From Citreicella sp. C3M06 (GTDB lineage: Bacteria; Pseudomonadota; Alphaproteobacteria; Rhodobacterales; Rhodobacteraceae), in contig NZ_JAHKQA010000100.1 in assembly GCF_018860705.1 (NCBI RefSeq), forward strand, positions 1-61,419: a DNA stretch of 61,419 nt, read 5' to 3'. Within the stretch, counting starts at the first letter, position 1, and every line of letters begins with the position of its first letter. Positions 1 to 5,613 of the stretch are shown here, piece by piece. The notes under the pieces were generated by a model. The model was not told the DNA's origin, did no database searches, and saw only the letters and a program-made list of their open reading frames with translations. Made by a program: the position numbers and the translations under genes.

Positions 1-364
1 CGGATCAGCCGGTTGCCGATTTGCTCAGGCGCCCGGTCGACCGGCAGGCGCATGCGCAGCATGCTGCCAGGAGCGGGCCGTTCTTGATCCGCTCGACAAC
101 CTGATTTCGAAGCTCTGGATGCCGGATCAATTTGCGCTGACGGGCGCGCCGATGGATGGCTTTCTGATGCGCGGCAGCATAATGCTCGCCGTCATCGCCC
201 GGTAGGCTTTCGTCACTGAACCAGCTCCGCGTGATCTCGCAGTGGCTCGTGGCTTTTGAACGCTGCAACACCCCCGCCATCTCCCGGACGGGGATCTTCG
301 CCAGCCGCCAGCGTTCGATCTAAAGACGTTCCTTGACGCTCAGTTGCGTGTATACCGCTCCCAA
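1..364 (-). pseudogene. IS30-family transposase, N-terminal fragment, broken
   Basis: Read on the minus strand, the frame gives LGAVYTQLSVKERL, a stop, then IERWRLAKIPVREMAGVLQRS and a region ending VVERIKNG, which looks like the N-terminal HTH part of IS30-family transposases. The expected ATG is a TTG here (362-364); the second IS30 end at 2230-2313 keeps ATG at the same place. There is an in-frame stop at 320-322. A 44-bp hairpin element at 33-76 then splits the usual WSPEQI motif: the frame resumes as APEQIGNRLIR at about 1-32. The rest of the gene lies outside the window. It is clearly non-functional as read. Confidence 0.75.
33..76. repeat. 44-bp hairpin element, copy 1 (inside IS30 transposase relic)
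   Basis: This segment sits between the codons for KNG and PEQ of the IS30 relic and does not belong to a transposase. On the plus strand it contains GGCAG, a GCG bulge, CATGC, the triloop GCA, GCATG and CTGCC, followed by AGGAGCGG. It therefore folds as two 5-bp stems separated by a one-sided 3-nt bulge. It matches the segment at 1100-1143 in length, architecture and most bases. That it is an insertion is inferred from the interrupted family motif. Confidence 0.7.
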
Positions 365-432
365 GGCAGACTTTCTCCATTAGATAACCATCCGTTTTCT
401 AATGGGAGTCGCGCTTGAGGGTAGCGCGCAAC
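365..432 (-). mobile_element. IS30-family terminal region, copy 1
   Basis: About 68 bp upstream of the IS30 relic start are nearly identical to 2246-2313 (shared blocks include GTTTTCTAATGGGAGTCGC and TTGAGGGTAGCGCGCA). Similarity stops after GCGCGCA, so the element end is placed near 432. It is the terminal repeat and leader of the IS30 element. Confidence 0.6.
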
Positions 433-650
433 GGGTTTTATGTGAAGCAAGATCGGGAGGACCGGGGTCGCACATAGGGTGTGCTACGGTGACCCTCGTC
501 GCAGGCCGATCCGGCAACTAGGCGACATGACAACGGCAGGTCTCCGGTCACCCTTACTCACCACTCGCATCATGCACTTAATATCAGTGGATTGACGGAC
601 CCAGACTGAGGCTCATGATGAACCTATCAAGCTCGGGCTGGGGAAAAACG
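433..650. other. intergenic stretch between IS remnants
   Basis: This 218-bp stretch runs from the IS30 end to the small broken gene at 651. No convincing coding frame, RNA gene or repeat was recognised. Confidence 0.5.
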
Positions 651-899
651 ATGGCCAACGACGAGGACCCACCGCAGTACTTCTCCTTTCGGGAGCGTCA
701 ACGCCAGTAACAGCTTTCGCGCCAACGGGACGAGGAGCGTTTGGAGCGAGGCGAGCTCTCTGCGCGCGACCTGCAACGTGAGAACTACGCCTTTGCGCAT
801 GTCCCATTCAACTGGTTTTCGATCCGACGCAGGGATGGCTCCCATATGCGTATTCCCATACCGCCACGCCGGTCACTGACCGAACCGGAAGACCCATGA
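651..899 (+). pseudogene. small hypothetical gene with an in-frame stop
   Basis: From the ATG at 651 the frame reads MANDEDPPQYFSFRERQRQ, a TAA stop (708-710), then a charged stretch of about 62 residues containing QRDEERLERGELSARDLQ and FNWFSIRRRDG, ending at a TGA (897-899). The part after the stop looks like ordinary hydrophilic protein (many Arg/Glu, no further stops), so this may be one 82-codon gene broken by a nonsense change. I do not recognise the family. The 3' end touches the presumed left end of the IS3 element. Confidence 0.35.
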
Positions 900-1009
900 C
901 CTGCCCCCCCCCCCGCGGGTCCCTCATTCATGACGAGAGTCTGCAGGTTGGTGATGTGCTACCCGACGCGCCCTCGGCCGTTCTTAGAGTATCCGCGCTT
1001 GCATCAGGC

Positions 1010-1884
1010 TCACGGGCTGGTGTCGTGAGCTGATTTGATCAGGTCTGTCGGGACCTTGTTCCCGATGGCCCCGTGCGGTCTTTCTTCGTTGTCGTCTCTA
1101 CCACTGCCCGGCAGGCGATTGCGAAGCAATCTGCCGAGAGCGGCCAAGCCTCCAGCTTTTCGGCGGCATCTTCAAGGCTCATGAACCAGTGGCTGTTCAG
1201 GCATTCCGCCCGGAAGCGCCCGTTGAACGCCTCGATTAAGGCGTTGTCCGTGGGTTTTCCGGGGCGCGAGAAGTCCAGCGTCACACCCTTGGCGTAGGCC
1301 CATATCTCCATGTCCTTCGAGATGAACTCGCTGCCCTGATCGACGCGGATTGTGGCTGGATAGCCGCTGCGTTTGCACACCCGCTCGAGGGGCGCGACGA
1401 CGTCTTCGCCGCGGTAGGTGAAGCGTGCCTCGAGCACCGGCACATAGCGCGAGAATGTGTCCACCATCGTGAGCACGCGAAGCTTGCGCCCCGTCGCGAG
1501 CTGATCGTGGACGAAGTCCATAGCCCAGATATCGTTGGGATCGACAGCCTCCTTCCGGTCGTCGCGGAGCTTGGCCTTTACCCGCCGCTTCGGCGTCTTG
1601 TTCCCCAATTTCATGCCCAACTCATTGTAAATGCGATAAGTCTTCTTCGCGTTGATCTCCCAACTCTCGCGGCGCAACAGCACATGCACCCGCCTATAAC
1701 CGAAGCGGACACGGGTCTGGCAAATCTCTCGGATCCGCTGTTCCAAAGCGGCCTGCCCAGGTCGGCGAGACTTGTCGCGATAGCTCCTTGGATCGGACCG
1801 GATCACCTCGCAGGCGCGGCGGATCGACACCTGCCAATCCGCCCGCATCTCATCGACCAGCGTCCTCTTCCGGGCAGGCCTCAA
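1010..1884 (-). pseudogene. IS3-family transposase OrfB (DDE integrase), frame broken near the C-terminus
   Basis: The frame starts MRPARKRTLVDEMRADWQVS and carries the HTH_21 region (RVRFGYRRVHVLL) and the DDE integrase core: Asp in IWAMDFVHD, Asp in RVDQGSEF and Glu in NALIEAFNG. After EKLEAW the normal continuation RDYNEERPHGAIGNK is displaced by a 44-bp hairpin element (1100-1143) and shifted out of frame; the original ending SAHDTSP with its stop lies at 1010-1012. The uninterrupted frame instead runs to 1039 with an unrelated tail. All three catalytic residues survive, but the C-terminal part is lost. Confidence 0.8.
1100..1143. repeat. 44-bp hairpin element, copy 2 (inside IS3 orfB)
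   Basis: This segment lies between the codons for EAW and RDYNEERPH of orfB. It reads ...GGCAG, GCG, ATTGC, triloop GAA, GCAAT, CTGCC, GAGAGCGG. Compared with copy 1 at 33-76, the inner stem differs at two base pairs and both changes are compensated on the other arm, while the outer stem, bulge and GAGCGG-like tail are kept. Length (44 bp) and orientation on the plus strand are the same. Confidence 0.7.
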
Positions 1885-2146
1885 AGCTTTCGCTTGATGA
1901 CGTCCTGCAACATCTCCTTGTCCAGCGCGAGATCGGCGGCGATCTTCTTCAACCGCGCGTTCTCCTGCTCAAGCTCCCGCAGCCGCTTCATCTCGGACGG
2001 CATCAATCCCGCGTACTTCTTCTTCCAATTGAAGAAGGTCGCCGTGCTGATCCCCGCCTTGCGGCAGACCTCTACGACAGGCGTGCCATCCTCCGCCTGC
2101 TTGAGATGAACGCCTTCTGCGCGTCCGTGAACTTCGATGCCTTCAT
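1881..2146 (-). pseudogene. IS3-family transposase OrfA, 1-bp frameshift
   Basis: The start at 2146 reads MKASKFTDAQKAFI and then goes out of frame; the correct continuation (LKQAEDGTPVVEVCRKAGIS, then TATFFNWKKKYAG and a leucine-zipper-like LRELEQENARLKKIAADL) is in the next frame. One base is missing near 2105. The HTH_Tnp_1 domain and coiled coil are typical of IS3/IS407 OrfA. The end overlaps the OrfB start by 4 bp. A start at 2171 would give an unbroken 96-residue frame, but with an unusual N-terminus. Confidence 0.7.
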
Positions 2147-2229
2147 GCGTTTCCGCTCCTCTCCCAGCCAAGGATTCCGCCCGGAAAACTCTAAGCTGGA
2201 ACGGGGGCGTTTTCGGGGATCACATCACG

Positions 2230-2313: not shown

Positions 2314-2681
2314 ACAGTACCAAGCATAATCTGATAAGATTTCCCTTGGATAAGGGGTCCAGTTAACCATCTGCTTTGGCAGCATTTATCCGCTTTTGCA
2401 CGGCTGTCAAACGCGCGAGCGACTTGCGCAGCGCATGTTGCATCAACGCGGGGTCAAGGCACCGGCGAGGCCATCCTCGCATGCCGGGGTCATGCGGTGT
2501 GGCTTGCCGCTCCTTGCCTTGCAGGCGGGTGCGCGGCGCACCGGCAACGGCGGGCGACGGCCCACCGCACGGGAGATTCCCTTCCAGAACTGGCGTTGTC
2601 CGGCACACAAGGTGCTTTGCCTTTGGGCCGCTGCTGCGCCACAAAGGGCAGGCCCAGACACGCCCAAAGGACCGCGCTCGC
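2314..2681. other. 368-bp stretch before the acyl-CoA ligase gene
   Basis: A plus-strand frame stays open upstream of 2682 (back to 2376), but its translation is Arg/Cys-rich, low-complexity and unlike any ligase N-terminus. No other gene, terminator or known operator was recognised. In particular I saw no clear BioR-type palindrome. Confidence 0.4.
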
Positions 2682-3839
2682 ATGACTTTTGCCACCTTCC
2701 ACTGGCACCCCGAAAGCCGCCTGTGGCGACATGGCGATGCATGCGCGTCGCATTTGCTGGACAAGCTGCAGGCGGCGCTGGCGCAGGGCGCTTCGCTCGC
2801 CATCGGGCCAAACGGGATCGACTCCCTGGCCGGCGCGCCGCGCGGGCTGTTGCAGACCCGATCCTCGGGGACGACCGGCAGCGCCAAGGCGATCCGGCGC
2901 AGCCATGGCTCGTGGATCTCCAGCTTTGCGGTGAATGCTGACGCGCTGGGGATCACGCCGCGCGACAGCTATGGCATCCTTGGCGCGCCCGCCCAGTCGC
3001 TGGCGCTGTATGGCCTCGTCGAGGCGGCATTTCTGGGCGCGGATTTGCACAGTCTTCAGAGGCTACGGCCGGCGCGGCAGGCCGCACTTATGGTGGAGGG
3101 TGGCGTGACCATCCTCTATGCCACGCCGACCCAGCTGCGGCTGCTGTGCGAGGTCGGCCAGCCGATGCCGAGCCTCCGGCACATCCTGTGCGGCGGCGGG
3201 CGGATGCCGGACGGGCTGCGCGCGCGGGTTGCGCAGCTGTGCCCCGGCGCGGCGCTGCGTGAATTCTACGGCGCCGCCGAGACCAGCTTCATCGCCTGGG
3301 GCGACGCGGACACGCCAGAGGGCGCCGTGGGCCGCGCCTATCCCGGTGCCGAGATCCGGATCGACGCCGCGCCGGGCGGCTTTGGCGAGATCTGGGTGCG
3401 CAGCCCCTATCTGTTCGACGGTTATGCCGAGGGCGACAGCGCCGACACCCGCTGGCAGGACGGATTCGTCACCGTGGGCGAGATCGGGCGGATCGAGGGC
3501 GGAGTTCTAACCGTCGCCGGGCGGCGCTCTCGCATGGTCACCATTGCCGACACCAATGTCTTTCCCGAGGACATCGAGGCGCTCTTGCTTGGCGATCCGG
3601 CTGTCAGCCATTGCGCGGTGCTCCCTCGCCGTGATCCGCGTCGCGGCACGCAGCTGGTGGCAGTGATCGCTGGCAACTGCCCCCCTGCGCTCGAGGATCA
3701 TTTGCTGAGGCTCTGCCGCGCCGGGGTCGGGGCGCTTGCCGCGCCGCGCCGGGTGATCGGCATCAGCGACTTTGACTTGACCGCGACAGGCAAACCCGAC
3801 CTGCGCGCCCTCGCAAAGCGGCTGGAGGATCTGCCATGA
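2682..3839 (+). CDS. AMP-forming acyl-CoA synthetase (YhfT-like), short form
   Basis: This 385-residue protein belongs to the ANL superfamily, which activates carboxylic acids to acyl-AMP and then acyl-CoA. Visible motifs in order: the phosphate loop TRSSGTTGSAKAIRRSH near residue 62, YGAAETSF (A5) near residue 195, DGFVTVGEIGR (A7), GRRSRMVTIADTNVFPEDIEAL (A8 hinge), and TATGKPDLRAL with the C-terminal catalytic lysine. It is short for the family (about 480-550), with a reduced N-terminal subdomain. Start 2682 is chosen because upstream codons look non-coding. It overlaps the next gene by 4 bp. The ligase-thiolase-BioY association resembles the Bacillus yhfT-yhfS-yhfU (bioYB) locus, so a role linked to biotin or its fatty-acyl precursors is inferred; the substrate is unknown. 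Confidence 0.8.
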   Translation: MTFATFHWHPESRLWRHGDACASHLLDKLQAALAQGASLAIGPNGIDSLAGAPRGLLQTRSSGTTGSAKAIRRSHGSWISSFAVNADALGITPRDSYGILGAPAQSLALYGLVEAAFLGADLHSLQRLRPARQAALMVEGGVTILYATPTQLRLLCEVGQPMPSLRHILCGGGRMPDGLRARVAQLCPGAALREFYGAAETSFIAWGDADTPEGAVGRAYPGAEIRIDAAPGGFGEIWVRSPYLFDGYAEGDSADTRWQDGFVTVGEIGRIEGGVLTVAGRRSRMVTIADTNVFPEDIEALLLGDPAVSHCAVLPRRDPRRGTQLVAVIAGNCPPALEDHLLRLCRAGVGALAAPRRVIGISDFDLTATGKPDLRALAKRLEDLP

Positions 3840-4939
3840 GCGGCGTGCGCATCGTTGCGGCGCTGCGCACGCCGGTCGCCCCGCGCGGCGGTGCGCTGTC
3901 GCGGATGTTGCTGCATGAGCTTGCCGCGCCCGTCTTGAACGCGGCTCTGGCGGCGGCAGGGCTGGCGCCCGAACAGGTCGATGAGCTGGTGCTTGGCAAT
4001 GCGCTTGGCGCAGGCGGCAACCCGGCGCGGCTGGTGGCGCTTGCGGCCGGGCTGCCCGAACGCGTCGCGGGCCTGACCATCGACCGGCAATGCTGCGCCG
4101 GGCTGGATGCGCTGGTGCTTGGGGCGGCGCTGATCGCCTCGGGGCAGGCGGAGGTGGTGGCGGCTGGCGGGGTGGAATCCTATTCCCGGCGGCCCTTGCG
4201 GCTGCGCACCGATCCGGATGGCGGCACACCGCAAGCTTACGACCGCCCGCCTTTCACCCCCTTTCCAGAGCGTGACCCGGATATGGACACCGCCGCCGAT
4301 ACGCTGGCGCAGCGGGCTGGCTTTGATCGCGCCGCGCAGGACGATTGGGCCGTGGACAGCCATCGCAAGGCCCGCGCCGCCGATCTTCGGGAGGAGATCG
4401 TGCCTCTGGCGGGGCTTGCGCGCGATGCCTTCACCCGCGATCTGTCGCCTCGGCTTGCGGCGCGGGCGCGGGTGCTGACCGGCAGCATCACCCCGGCCAA
4501 TGCCGCCGTCGCTGCTGATGGCGCGGCGATCTGCATCATGGTGTCGGATCGCGTCGCCGCGCGGCTGGGGCAGGGCGGCCTTCGCTGGGGCGGTGGTCTG
4601 ACCCTTGGCGCGCGCCCCGATCTGCCCGGCCTTGCGCCGGTTGCCGCCATCAAGGCCTTGCTGAATCGCAACCGGCTTCACCCGCAGGACTTGCGCGTGG
4701 CCGAGATCATGGAGGCCTACGCCGTGCAGGCGCTGGCCTGTATCGCGGGCGCGCAGATCGACCCGCAAATCGTCAACCCCGGCGGCGGCGGGCTGGCGCG
4801 CGGCCATCCGGTTGGCGCTTCGGGGGCGATCAACGCGGTACGGCTATTTCATGAACTGCGGGGCAGGGGGGGCAGCGGCATCGCCGCCATCGCGGCGGCG
4901 GGTGGGCTAGGTAGCGCGGTGCTGATGTCCGCCGACTAG
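3836..4939 (+). CDS. divergent thiolase-family protein (YhfS-like)
   Basis: This 367-residue protein has the thiolase fold. The acyl-accepting cysteine lies in DRQCCAGLDAL near residue 84, and the C-terminal NPGGGGLARGHPVGASGA carries the catalytic histidine. The second catalytic cysteine, normally in a CxGGG motif near the end, is absent: the matching stretch reads IAAAGGLGSAV. The usual NEAFA motif is also changed (MEAYA). It may therefore not be an ordinary acetyl-CoA acetyltransferase; a condensing, hydrolytic or binding role is possible. It is translationally coupled to the ligase (ATGA overlap) and ends tail-to-tail with the nitroreductase on a shared CTAG. Confidence 0.8.
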   Translation: MSGVRIVAALRTPVAPRGGALSRMLLHELAAPVLNAALAAAGLAPEQVDELVLGNALGAGGNPARLVALAAGLPERVAGLTIDRQCCAGLDALVLGAALIASGQAEVVAAGGVESYSRRPLRLRTDPDGGTPQAYDRPPFTPFPERDPDMDTAADTLAQRAGFDRAAQDDWAVDSHRKARAADLREEIVPLAGLARDAFTRDLSPRLAARARVLTGSITPANAAVAADGAAICIMVSDRVAARLGQGGLRWGGGLTLGARPDLPGLAPVAAIKALLNRNRLHPQDLRVAEIMEAYAVQALACIAGAQIDPQIVNPGGGGLARGHPVGASGAINAVRLFHELRGRGGSGIAAIAAAGGLGSAVLMSAD

Positions 4940-5613
4940 AAGCCCCTGAGCGTCGCGAACTCTTCAAGGGGCGCGCGCTCGGTCCGCACGGAATTGGCCG
5001 GGGCATCCGGATCGGCGCGCCCGAGCGCGAGGCCGCATACCACCATCTCGTCAGCGCCAAGGCCAAGCGCTGCGTGGGCGACATCGGCATGATTGGCCAG
5101 CGCGCCGATGCCGCAGCTGGCGTAGCCCATGCCTTCGGCGGCGATCATCAGCGCCATCAGCGACAGGCCCAGATCCATGAAGCAGCCCTTGCCCATCGCC
5201 GGGTCGATGGTCACGACGATGCCGACCGGCGCATCGAAGAAGCCGTAGTTGCGGGCAAACTGGGCGCGTCGCCCCGGCAGATCGCGCCGTTCGATCCCCA
5301 GCGCTGCATACAGAGCATGGCCCGCCGCGCGCTGGCGGGCCTTCAGGGCGGGCGGCATTGGCTGCGGAAAATAAGAGTATTGCGACACTTGCGCCCGGCC
5401 CGCGCTGGCCGCATCCACCAGCGCCACGCTGAGCTTTGCCAAGGGCGCACCGGTCAGTGCATGGAACCGCCCGGGCTGTAGATTGGCCCCGCTTGGCGCG
5501 GTGCGCGCGGCGCGCAACATGCGTTCCACATCGCCGCGCGGCACTGGATCCGGCAGAAACCCGCGGACAGAGCGCCGCGCGAATAGCAGCGCCTCTGCCG
5601 CGCTCAGGCTCAT
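4936..5613 (-). CDS. nitroreductase-family flavoprotein
   Basis: This 225-residue protein has the nitroreductase signature: an N-terminal RRSVRGFLPDPVP FMN-binding stretch, AARTAPSGANLQPGRF, and the C-terminal region GYASCGIGALANHADVAHAALGL and VCGLALGRADPDAPAN. The family uses FMN and NAD(P)H to reduce nitro groups, quinones or enones. Start 5613 overlaps the bioY stop by 4 bp, so it is the last gene of the bioMNY operon. Its physiological substrate cannot be told from sequence; a link to biotin is only positional. Confidence 0.85.
   Translation of the reverse strand: MSLSAAEALLFARRSVRGFLPDPVPRGDVERMLRAARTAPSGANLQPGRFHALTGAPLAKLSVALVDAASAGRAQVSQYSYFPQPMPPALKARQRAAGHALYAALGIERRDLPGRRAQFARNYGFFDAPVGIVVTIDPAMGKGCFMDLGLSLMALMIAAEGMGYASCGIGALANHADVAHAALGLGADEMVVCGLALGRADPDAPANSVRTERAPLEEFATLRGF

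Follow-up and report, generated by a model that had tools for sequence, protein, structure and literature searches.

Small hairpin elements with conserved ends and a freely varying, paired stem within transposase genes of Rhodobacteraceae-level bacteria

Transposase genes in a bacterial family of Rhodobacteraceae level are interrupted by a short hairpin element, in which conserved ends flank a stem-loop whose sequence appears free while its pairing is kept. The most probable account, to which we give roughly a 70% chance, is a non-autonomous mobile DNA hairpin resembling REP sequences and Rickettsia palindromic elements (RPEs), moved in trans and lodged in other mobile DNA, usually breaking the gene that hosts it. 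The element forms a large family found mainly in one bacterial family of mostly marine members, most of the element's named carriers being Rhodobacterales, and apparently it has not been described so far. Mobile hairpins of ∼41 bp, with fixed ends, a free but pairing-constrained stem and no known enzyme, would rank with the smallest mobile DNAs, and this one may account for many broken transposase genes in the genomes of its family.

Two copies in the window

The window, a stretch of 61,419 nucleotides of Citreicella sp. C3M06 (contig NZ_JAHKQA010000100.1), had been credited in a first-pass annotation with two related 44-bp hairpin segments, at 33–76 and 1100–1143. Both are present and belong to one family (81% identity over 36 nt, 41–76 against 1108–1143), at a size of 41 bp rather than 44: the real limits are 35–75 and 1102–1142, and the remainder consists of neighbouring bases. 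The core GGCAGGCG-N3-GC-N3-GC-N3-CTGCC matches both copies exactly, and they are its sole matches in the window at up to two mismatches (two or more matches arose in 4/100 shuffles). The window's own genome (G000, 5.0 Mb) holds 11 occurrences of the exact core, against 0 for the reversed control, so repetition of the core is not due to chance.

Copy 1 (35–75, minus strand) is a net 41-bp insertion in a fragment of an IS30-family transposase gene. The 5′ part of that gene (5–319, minus strand), recognised by its reading frame and by 80% DNA identity to annotated IS30 transposases, is truncated twice, once where the window ends and once by the element. Similarity to annotated IS30 genes breaks off at window position 77, and visual comparison with an intact IS30 gene at another locus (L378) gave the net gain of 41 bp. 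This copy is degenerate, with the CATGC stem kept and the conserved GGGCARTG end absent, and its fold stability is unremarkable (z −0.75 on the plus strand, −0.98 on the minus strand).

Copy 2 (1102–1142, minus strand) is a 41-bp insertion in an IS3-family orfB, with the coding-strand form CGCTCTC-stem-CTGCCGGGCAGTG and good fold stability (z −2.5 on the plus strand, −3.2 on the minus strand). The orfB frame (1039–1968, minus strand; identified by its reading frame and its relatives) is out of phase past the element; the orfA frame of the same IS3 lies at 1881–2219 (minus strand, by reading frame). The nearest element-free relative of this IS3 is 90.8% identical, and an annotated relative, ISSisp1, 82%. 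Because no empty sites were found among the loci, which had been selected for the element, plasmid relatives were used as comparators. Alignment with four element-free IS3 relatives places exactly 41 bp inside TTGGC^GTAGAGAC, between C and G, with neither target duplication nor deletion. Intact relatives of the IS30 and of the IS3 alike carry no insert, which bears out the first-pass view of both segments as interruptions.

An 84-bp direct repeat, 88% identical, lies at window 347–430 and 2228–2311, past the starts of the IS30 fragment and of the IS3 element respectively; it may represent a shared insertion sequence (IS) end or a duplication border. Plus-strand frames that by eye resemble an acyl-CoA ligase (2367–3839) and a thiolase (3776–4939) adjoin the IS cluster.

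Ends, stems and distribution

Read on the coding strand, the element comprises CCCTCTC, a hypervariable stem-loop and then CTGCCGGGCARTG, giving conserved ends of 7 nt on one side and 13 nt on the other. Total length is 34–47 bp with a mode of 41 (196 of 224 entries retained by a fold and length filter, which itself sets the upper bound of 47 bp). Lengths span all three residues modulo 3, which argues that the element is not read through. A target logo built from 202 independent sites (out of 267 elements, after removal of similar flanks, low scores and short flanks) holds information almost solely at positions −1 to +5, as C^GAYGR; on the opposite strand this corresponds to insertion directly 3′ of YCRTC. 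Some search patterns fixed position −1, but in the window's own genome, for which most searches left it open, −1 was C in 23/34 sites and +1 was G in 28/34. Four precise insertions were seen in a single IS3 of another genome (G013) by comparison with its element-free relative. The frame was off across the junction in 4/18 same-strand pairs of loci occupied at the same site, indicating either that the left limit is not always the same or that an adjoining base has been altered.

Covariation of the stems, first claimed from the two window copies, is upheld across the family. The 374 end-defined matches reduce to 209 distinct variable regions of 14–27 nt, of which 71% contain a perfect stem of ≥6 bp, compared with 0.8% of shuffles; the longest perfect stem is mostly 6–7 bp, reaching 8 bp in 15/209. 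Across 71 distinct 21-nt forms, five inner pairs were 91.5% Watson–Crick and comprised 14 pair types (some loci had been retrieved by patterns with set stem letters, which slightly favours those stems in this count), against 63% (maximum 69%) in 500 permutations, a control that leaves the relatedness between forms in place, and 11–18% when the arms were slid. The stems fall into several types (GGCA..CGC with a CGC bulge, GGGA..GCC, ATCG..CGA and others); the one-sided GCG bulge described for the window pair, though present, is accordingly a mark of just one of them. Homologous genes often carry different stems at the same site. At loci L085:1501 and L116:1282, flanks that are 97% identical over 120 nt on each side enclose different stems; stems therefore change or are swapped faster than flanks. 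The proposal that emerged from the window, of a small mobile hairpin that inserts into genes, belongs to an alphaproteobacterial family and is strongly constrained to fold in single-stranded form, is thus one that the wider data sustain. A known RNA family was rejected as an explanation: a search of 14 loci other than the window against Rfam gave 10 weak matches and none at gathering score, so that no curated model was reached.

Many copies were found beyond the window pair. The window's own genome contains 51 places matching a loose end pattern (reversed control, 0 forward and 1 reverse) and 28 copies by a strict pattern. The strict pattern was present in 55/198 sampled genomes of the Rhodobacteraceae-level family, with control columns of 0 among the rows listed; G013 and G002 have 7 strict copies each. 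A class-wide scan of 385 genomes, using the strict pattern with a slightly shorter gap permitted, found the element in six: 4/5 family members and 2/380 genomes from other families. At least 119 stretches lie in named genomes, with titles mostly of Rhodobacterales or Rhodobacteraceae among the matches listed; those listed from other phyla have variable regions that look unpaired by eye, and are for that reason considered chance matches. Seventeen stretches from viral contigs match the element pattern, and one stem type used as a query retrieved 127 plasmid records and 0 phage records. Two or more elements were present at 71/245 loci.

Host genes and the fate of interrupted frames

Twenty sites were drawn at random from the 123 strict ones and their flanks compared with Pfam, the queries being short pieces with mostly hand-chosen frames. 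A transposase domain was found in the flank of 14/20 (E up to 0.01), eight of them above the curated cut-off; of the other six sites, two are IS3-like by eye and four have no clear host. One transposase-positive site, L147:1870, has an IS3 piece on one flank and a ZinT-like host gene on the other. Both window host genes code on the minus strand, and the orientation that the two window copies share does not extend to the family: at the 16/20 sampled sites that were readable (two by eye only) nine elements were in sense and seven in antisense to the host gene, and both orientations occur even within one gene. Neighbouring elements within 1.5 kb were in the same orientation in 49 cases and inverted in 45. 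Together with the 9:7 ratio this suggests that the element enters as DNA.

When the element was disregarded, the frame across the junction was kept in 5/9 and lost in 4/9 of the sampled sites that were readable on both flanks, which leaves the earlier suggestion that interrupted genes may tolerate the insertion without clear support. Annotated coding sequences (CDS) contained 0/10 elements in three annotated plasmid stretches; among 60 plasmid records listed, a CDS underlay the match in one, none did so in 58 and one had no annotation, in a table that omits pseudogenes. Three viral contigs (L213, around 5559–5595, L205 and L214) share the same downstream sequence beside the element and carry three different stems; their host gene resembles a cytosine methylase by eye, and in L213, another piece of which gave no match in a Pfam search, the remnant of a second CCCCTCTC-CTGCC adjoins the element.

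Several ISs have multiplied while carrying more than one element. In G013, all six full-length copies of a 1385-bp IS3 carry one and the same set of four elements, of which two point each way; the element-free relative, in G055, is 72% identical. The one copy that was read has a 285-codon orfB frame otherwise free of lesions, and 3-bp matching flanks were seen by eye in 3/6 copies and were absent in 3/6. G055 holds four IS5-type copies of full length, every one with two elements. The long IS3 copies of G075 include two with five elements and one with four plus a gap in the match, and a shorter copy has three. Searches of these closed or nearly closed genomes (2, 1 and 6 contigs for G013, G055 and G075) found no element-free full-length copy of the loaded ISs. 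Such multiplied ISs are the strongest sign of continuing IS movement, in cis or in trans and, as no empty copy accompanies them, a reading in which the genes are dead requires a transposase that has been lost or that acts in trans. How ISs carrying two to five inserts could multiply is a question that they raise. In the window's own genome, contigs C34, C50, C100 and C101 bear the same element at equal distance from the contig start, and the three that were read share an IS5-type end and then diverge, indicating that several copies of that IS carry the element.

Coding constraint beside the element depended on the distance compared. Five of the six G013 copies could be aligned, the sixth having a variant end, and showed 10 nonsynonymous changes, 1 synonymous change and 0 stops, the expectation without selection being 69:28:3. 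Among same-site pairs of loci, 18 recent ones (5–19 differences) summed to 99 nonsynonymous and 77 synonymous changes, with a stop in 9/18, and 91 diverged ones (≥20 differences) to 1653 and 2501; these sums omit 1 of the 110 pairs, which had <5 differences. Against an expectation of ∼2.5:1 (taken from one orfB), the recent pairs are less constrained than the diverged ones and not cleanly neutral, bearing in mind that pairs are non-independent and that the best of six frames was taken, which lowers the count of 99. For example, L162/L176, which have identical stems, differ by 20 synonymous and 4 nonsynonymous changes, and L064/L065 by 71 and 21 with one stop. Strand and frame were kept across the exact junction in 14 of the 19 pairs (out of 110) that were divergent enough and had an unambiguous frame on each side: 12 were sense and 2 antisense, set against 9:7 in the random sample, though pairs are non-independent. 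All three insertion phases were seen among same-site pairs.

Strong constraint at long distance and weak constraint at short distance would be given alike by an IS lineage that is active while individual copies decay and by repeated insertion into once-functional genes. Ten pairs have identical stems despite flanks that are 13–33% apart; this, with the different stems found within 97% identical flanks, favours repeated insertion or exchange over inheritance. Two further tests are insensitive in GC-rich DNA: codon usage gave 31 confident calls at 178 sites, 11 of them in phase, and at 438 sites the mean open-frame length after exact removal was 147.7 aa, compared with 144.0–145.3 aa after shifts of 1–2 bases. 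Taken together, the evidence suggests that genes hosting the element are usually broken.

Movement, alternatives and known systems

The best-supported reading, a mobile DNA hairpin moved in trans, allows a mechanism to be proposed. Conserved ends, with pairing kept in a stem otherwise free in sequence, suggest that the ends plus the hairpin would be recognised on a single strand. Insertion at C^GAYGR, which in the comparisons above is precise and without target duplication, would be carried out by an enzyme supplied in trans. HUH-type single-strand insertion, as for IS200/IS605 and REP elements, is the best anatomical fit, since no target bases are duplicated, the target is one-sided and a hairpin is needed; as an assignment it is tentative and rather doubtful. 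Accumulation in IS and phage genes would follow if these are dispensable targets, and upon copying of an interrupted IS, its transposase probably supplied in trans, the element would ride along. The mobile-hairpin reading needs in addition a copying or correcting step by which stem sequence would change while pairing is kept.

No autonomous version, with a gene between the same ends, was found among the loci examined. With one mismatch allowed, the left half of the element matched 502 times in the loci, 64 of these without a right half within 45 nt; by eye the 64 comprise decayed copies, the opposite end read as a palindrome and matches by chance, besides bare left halves in L196 and L208. The Y1_Tnp profile occurred in 18/198 family genomes and was not found in G000, G013 or G002. 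By hand counts, elements were present in 9/18 genomes with the domain and 46/180 without (p = 0.049). Y2_Tnp, the profile of IS91-type HUH transposases, occurred in 21/198 genomes, as fragments only in G000, and was not found in G013, G055 or G075; its association with the element was stronger (13/21 with the domain, 42/177 without, p = 0.0006, again by hand counts). General mobile-DNA load could produce both associations, and for Y2 probably does so.

An alternative to gene breakage is that interrupted genes are expressed with the element removed or skipped, as a mini-intron, as a mobile bypassing element or by frequent precise DNA excision, so that the transposases work. The loaded ISs lend themselves to this idea: the six G013 copies with their same four elements, an otherwise lesion-free frame in the copy read and 3-bp flanks in half of them, and the multicopy ISs of G055 (two elements each) and G075 (three to five). 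So do the mostly synonymous differences of diverged same-site pairs such as L162/L176 and L064/L065, and the strand and frame kept in 14/19 clear pairs, 12 of them sense. However, both orientations are in use, even within one gene and at 9:7 in the random sample, which makes removal from RNA unlikely; the 10:1 changes in G013, the stops in 9/18 recent pairs, the 4/9 sites out of frame and lengths in all residues modulo 3 also speak against it, as do annotated CDS over 0/10 plasmid-stretch elements and 1/60 plasmid records (pseudogenes omitted there). Identical stems between flanks 13–33% apart are better explained by repeated insertion of common stem types. Translational bypassing in particular was rejected: insertions occur in all phases and both orientations, and the sites read have variable upstream codons beside a fixed element end, with no matching take-off and landing codons. 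Removal or skipping is accordingly improbable, and we give slightly less credence still to its fullest form, a novel kind of mobile interruption subject to removal, skipping or excision in either orientation, such that transposase genes with up to five insertions still work and spread.

It is likewise improbable that the element is an ordinary REP family, GTAG- or CGTC-tagged, moved by a RAYT (Y1) transposase, even though its size, hairpin, adjacent short tag (CRTC on one strand) and lack of target duplication resemble those of REPs, and the weak Y1_Tnp association points the same way. RAYT as the mobiliser was rejected because Y1_Tnp was not found in several element-rich genomes, namely G000, G013 and G002 (28, 7 and 7 strict copies). 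Moreover, sampled sites lie mainly within transposase genes, inverted neighbours are not in excess (49/45), and the tag is a target preference that is not invariant, beside conserved ends of 7 + 13 nt where an ordinary REP would have a bare tag. The 14/20 transposase-like hosts might instead suggest that a host defence or control system aimed at transposase genes puts the hairpins there, with no selfish transposition involved, and several sites do abut codons of what we take to be IS5- and IS256-type catalytic Asp motifs. Other hosts occur too, for example the viral methylase-like gene, and the transposase bias is explained by the fit of the C^GAYGR preference to catalytic Asp codons together with loss of insertions in needed genes; placement by a host system is very improbable.

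Among known systems, RPEs are also palindromes inside genes of an alphaproteobacterial group, and within genes they are read in frame as extra residues; the present element differs in having lengths in all three residues modulo 3. Members of IS200/IS605 have a hairpin near their ends and insert 3′ of a short target without duplication. The present element likewise lacks target duplication and adjoins a short specific target on one strand, but is only 34–47 bp long, with no transposase gene found between its ends. The byp elements of yeast mitochondria and the gap in T4 gene 60 likewise break up reading frames with hairpins of comparable size, whereas the present element occurs in both orientations and showed no matching take-off or landing codons. 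GTAG REPs with their RAYT (TnpA-REP) are, like it, non-autonomous hairpins considered to be mobilised in trans in single-stranded form; unlike them, it has no GTAG at the hairpin foot (202-site logo), and the Y1 domain was not found in several genomes rich in it. A text search with six stretches, mostly outside the subscription literature, found no paper containing the element's sequence.

The nearest described group that we found is that of the CGTC-tagged REPs, which are short and predominantly alphaproteobacterial, with no known dedicated transposase (Di Nocera et al. 2013, PMC3733652). There, RPE-6 equals CGTC-1 and RPE-4 equals CGTC-4, REP-encoded residues are mentioned for R. conorii, and the main text contains no word starting with Rhodobacter, Roseobacter or Dinoroseobacter (PMC3733652). 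The likeness lies in short palindromes, mainly of alphaproteobacteria, with no known transposase, and perhaps also in a CGTC-like tetranucleotide on one side. How REP-like hairpins without a dedicated transposase are mobilised, which the same account leaves open for CGTC REPs (PMC3733652), is a question that the present element raises too. CGTC REPs carry CGTC, or TGTC or CCTC, at one end (PMC3733652); beside the present element CRTC is frequent as target context and variable (202-site logo). Their stem is 8–9 bp with a loop of 4–5 nt and AT pairs almost always at its foot, and their 3-nt tail is mostly CCA (PMC3733652), whereas the stem here is mostly 6–7 bp and the ends differ from that tail. 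Head-to-head dimers, mostly outside genes, predominate among CGTC REPs according to the same source (PMC3733652); the present element has no head-to-head excess (49 same, 45 inverted), and is set apart by conserved 13-nt and 7-nt arms around a free stem and by sites mostly inside transposase genes.
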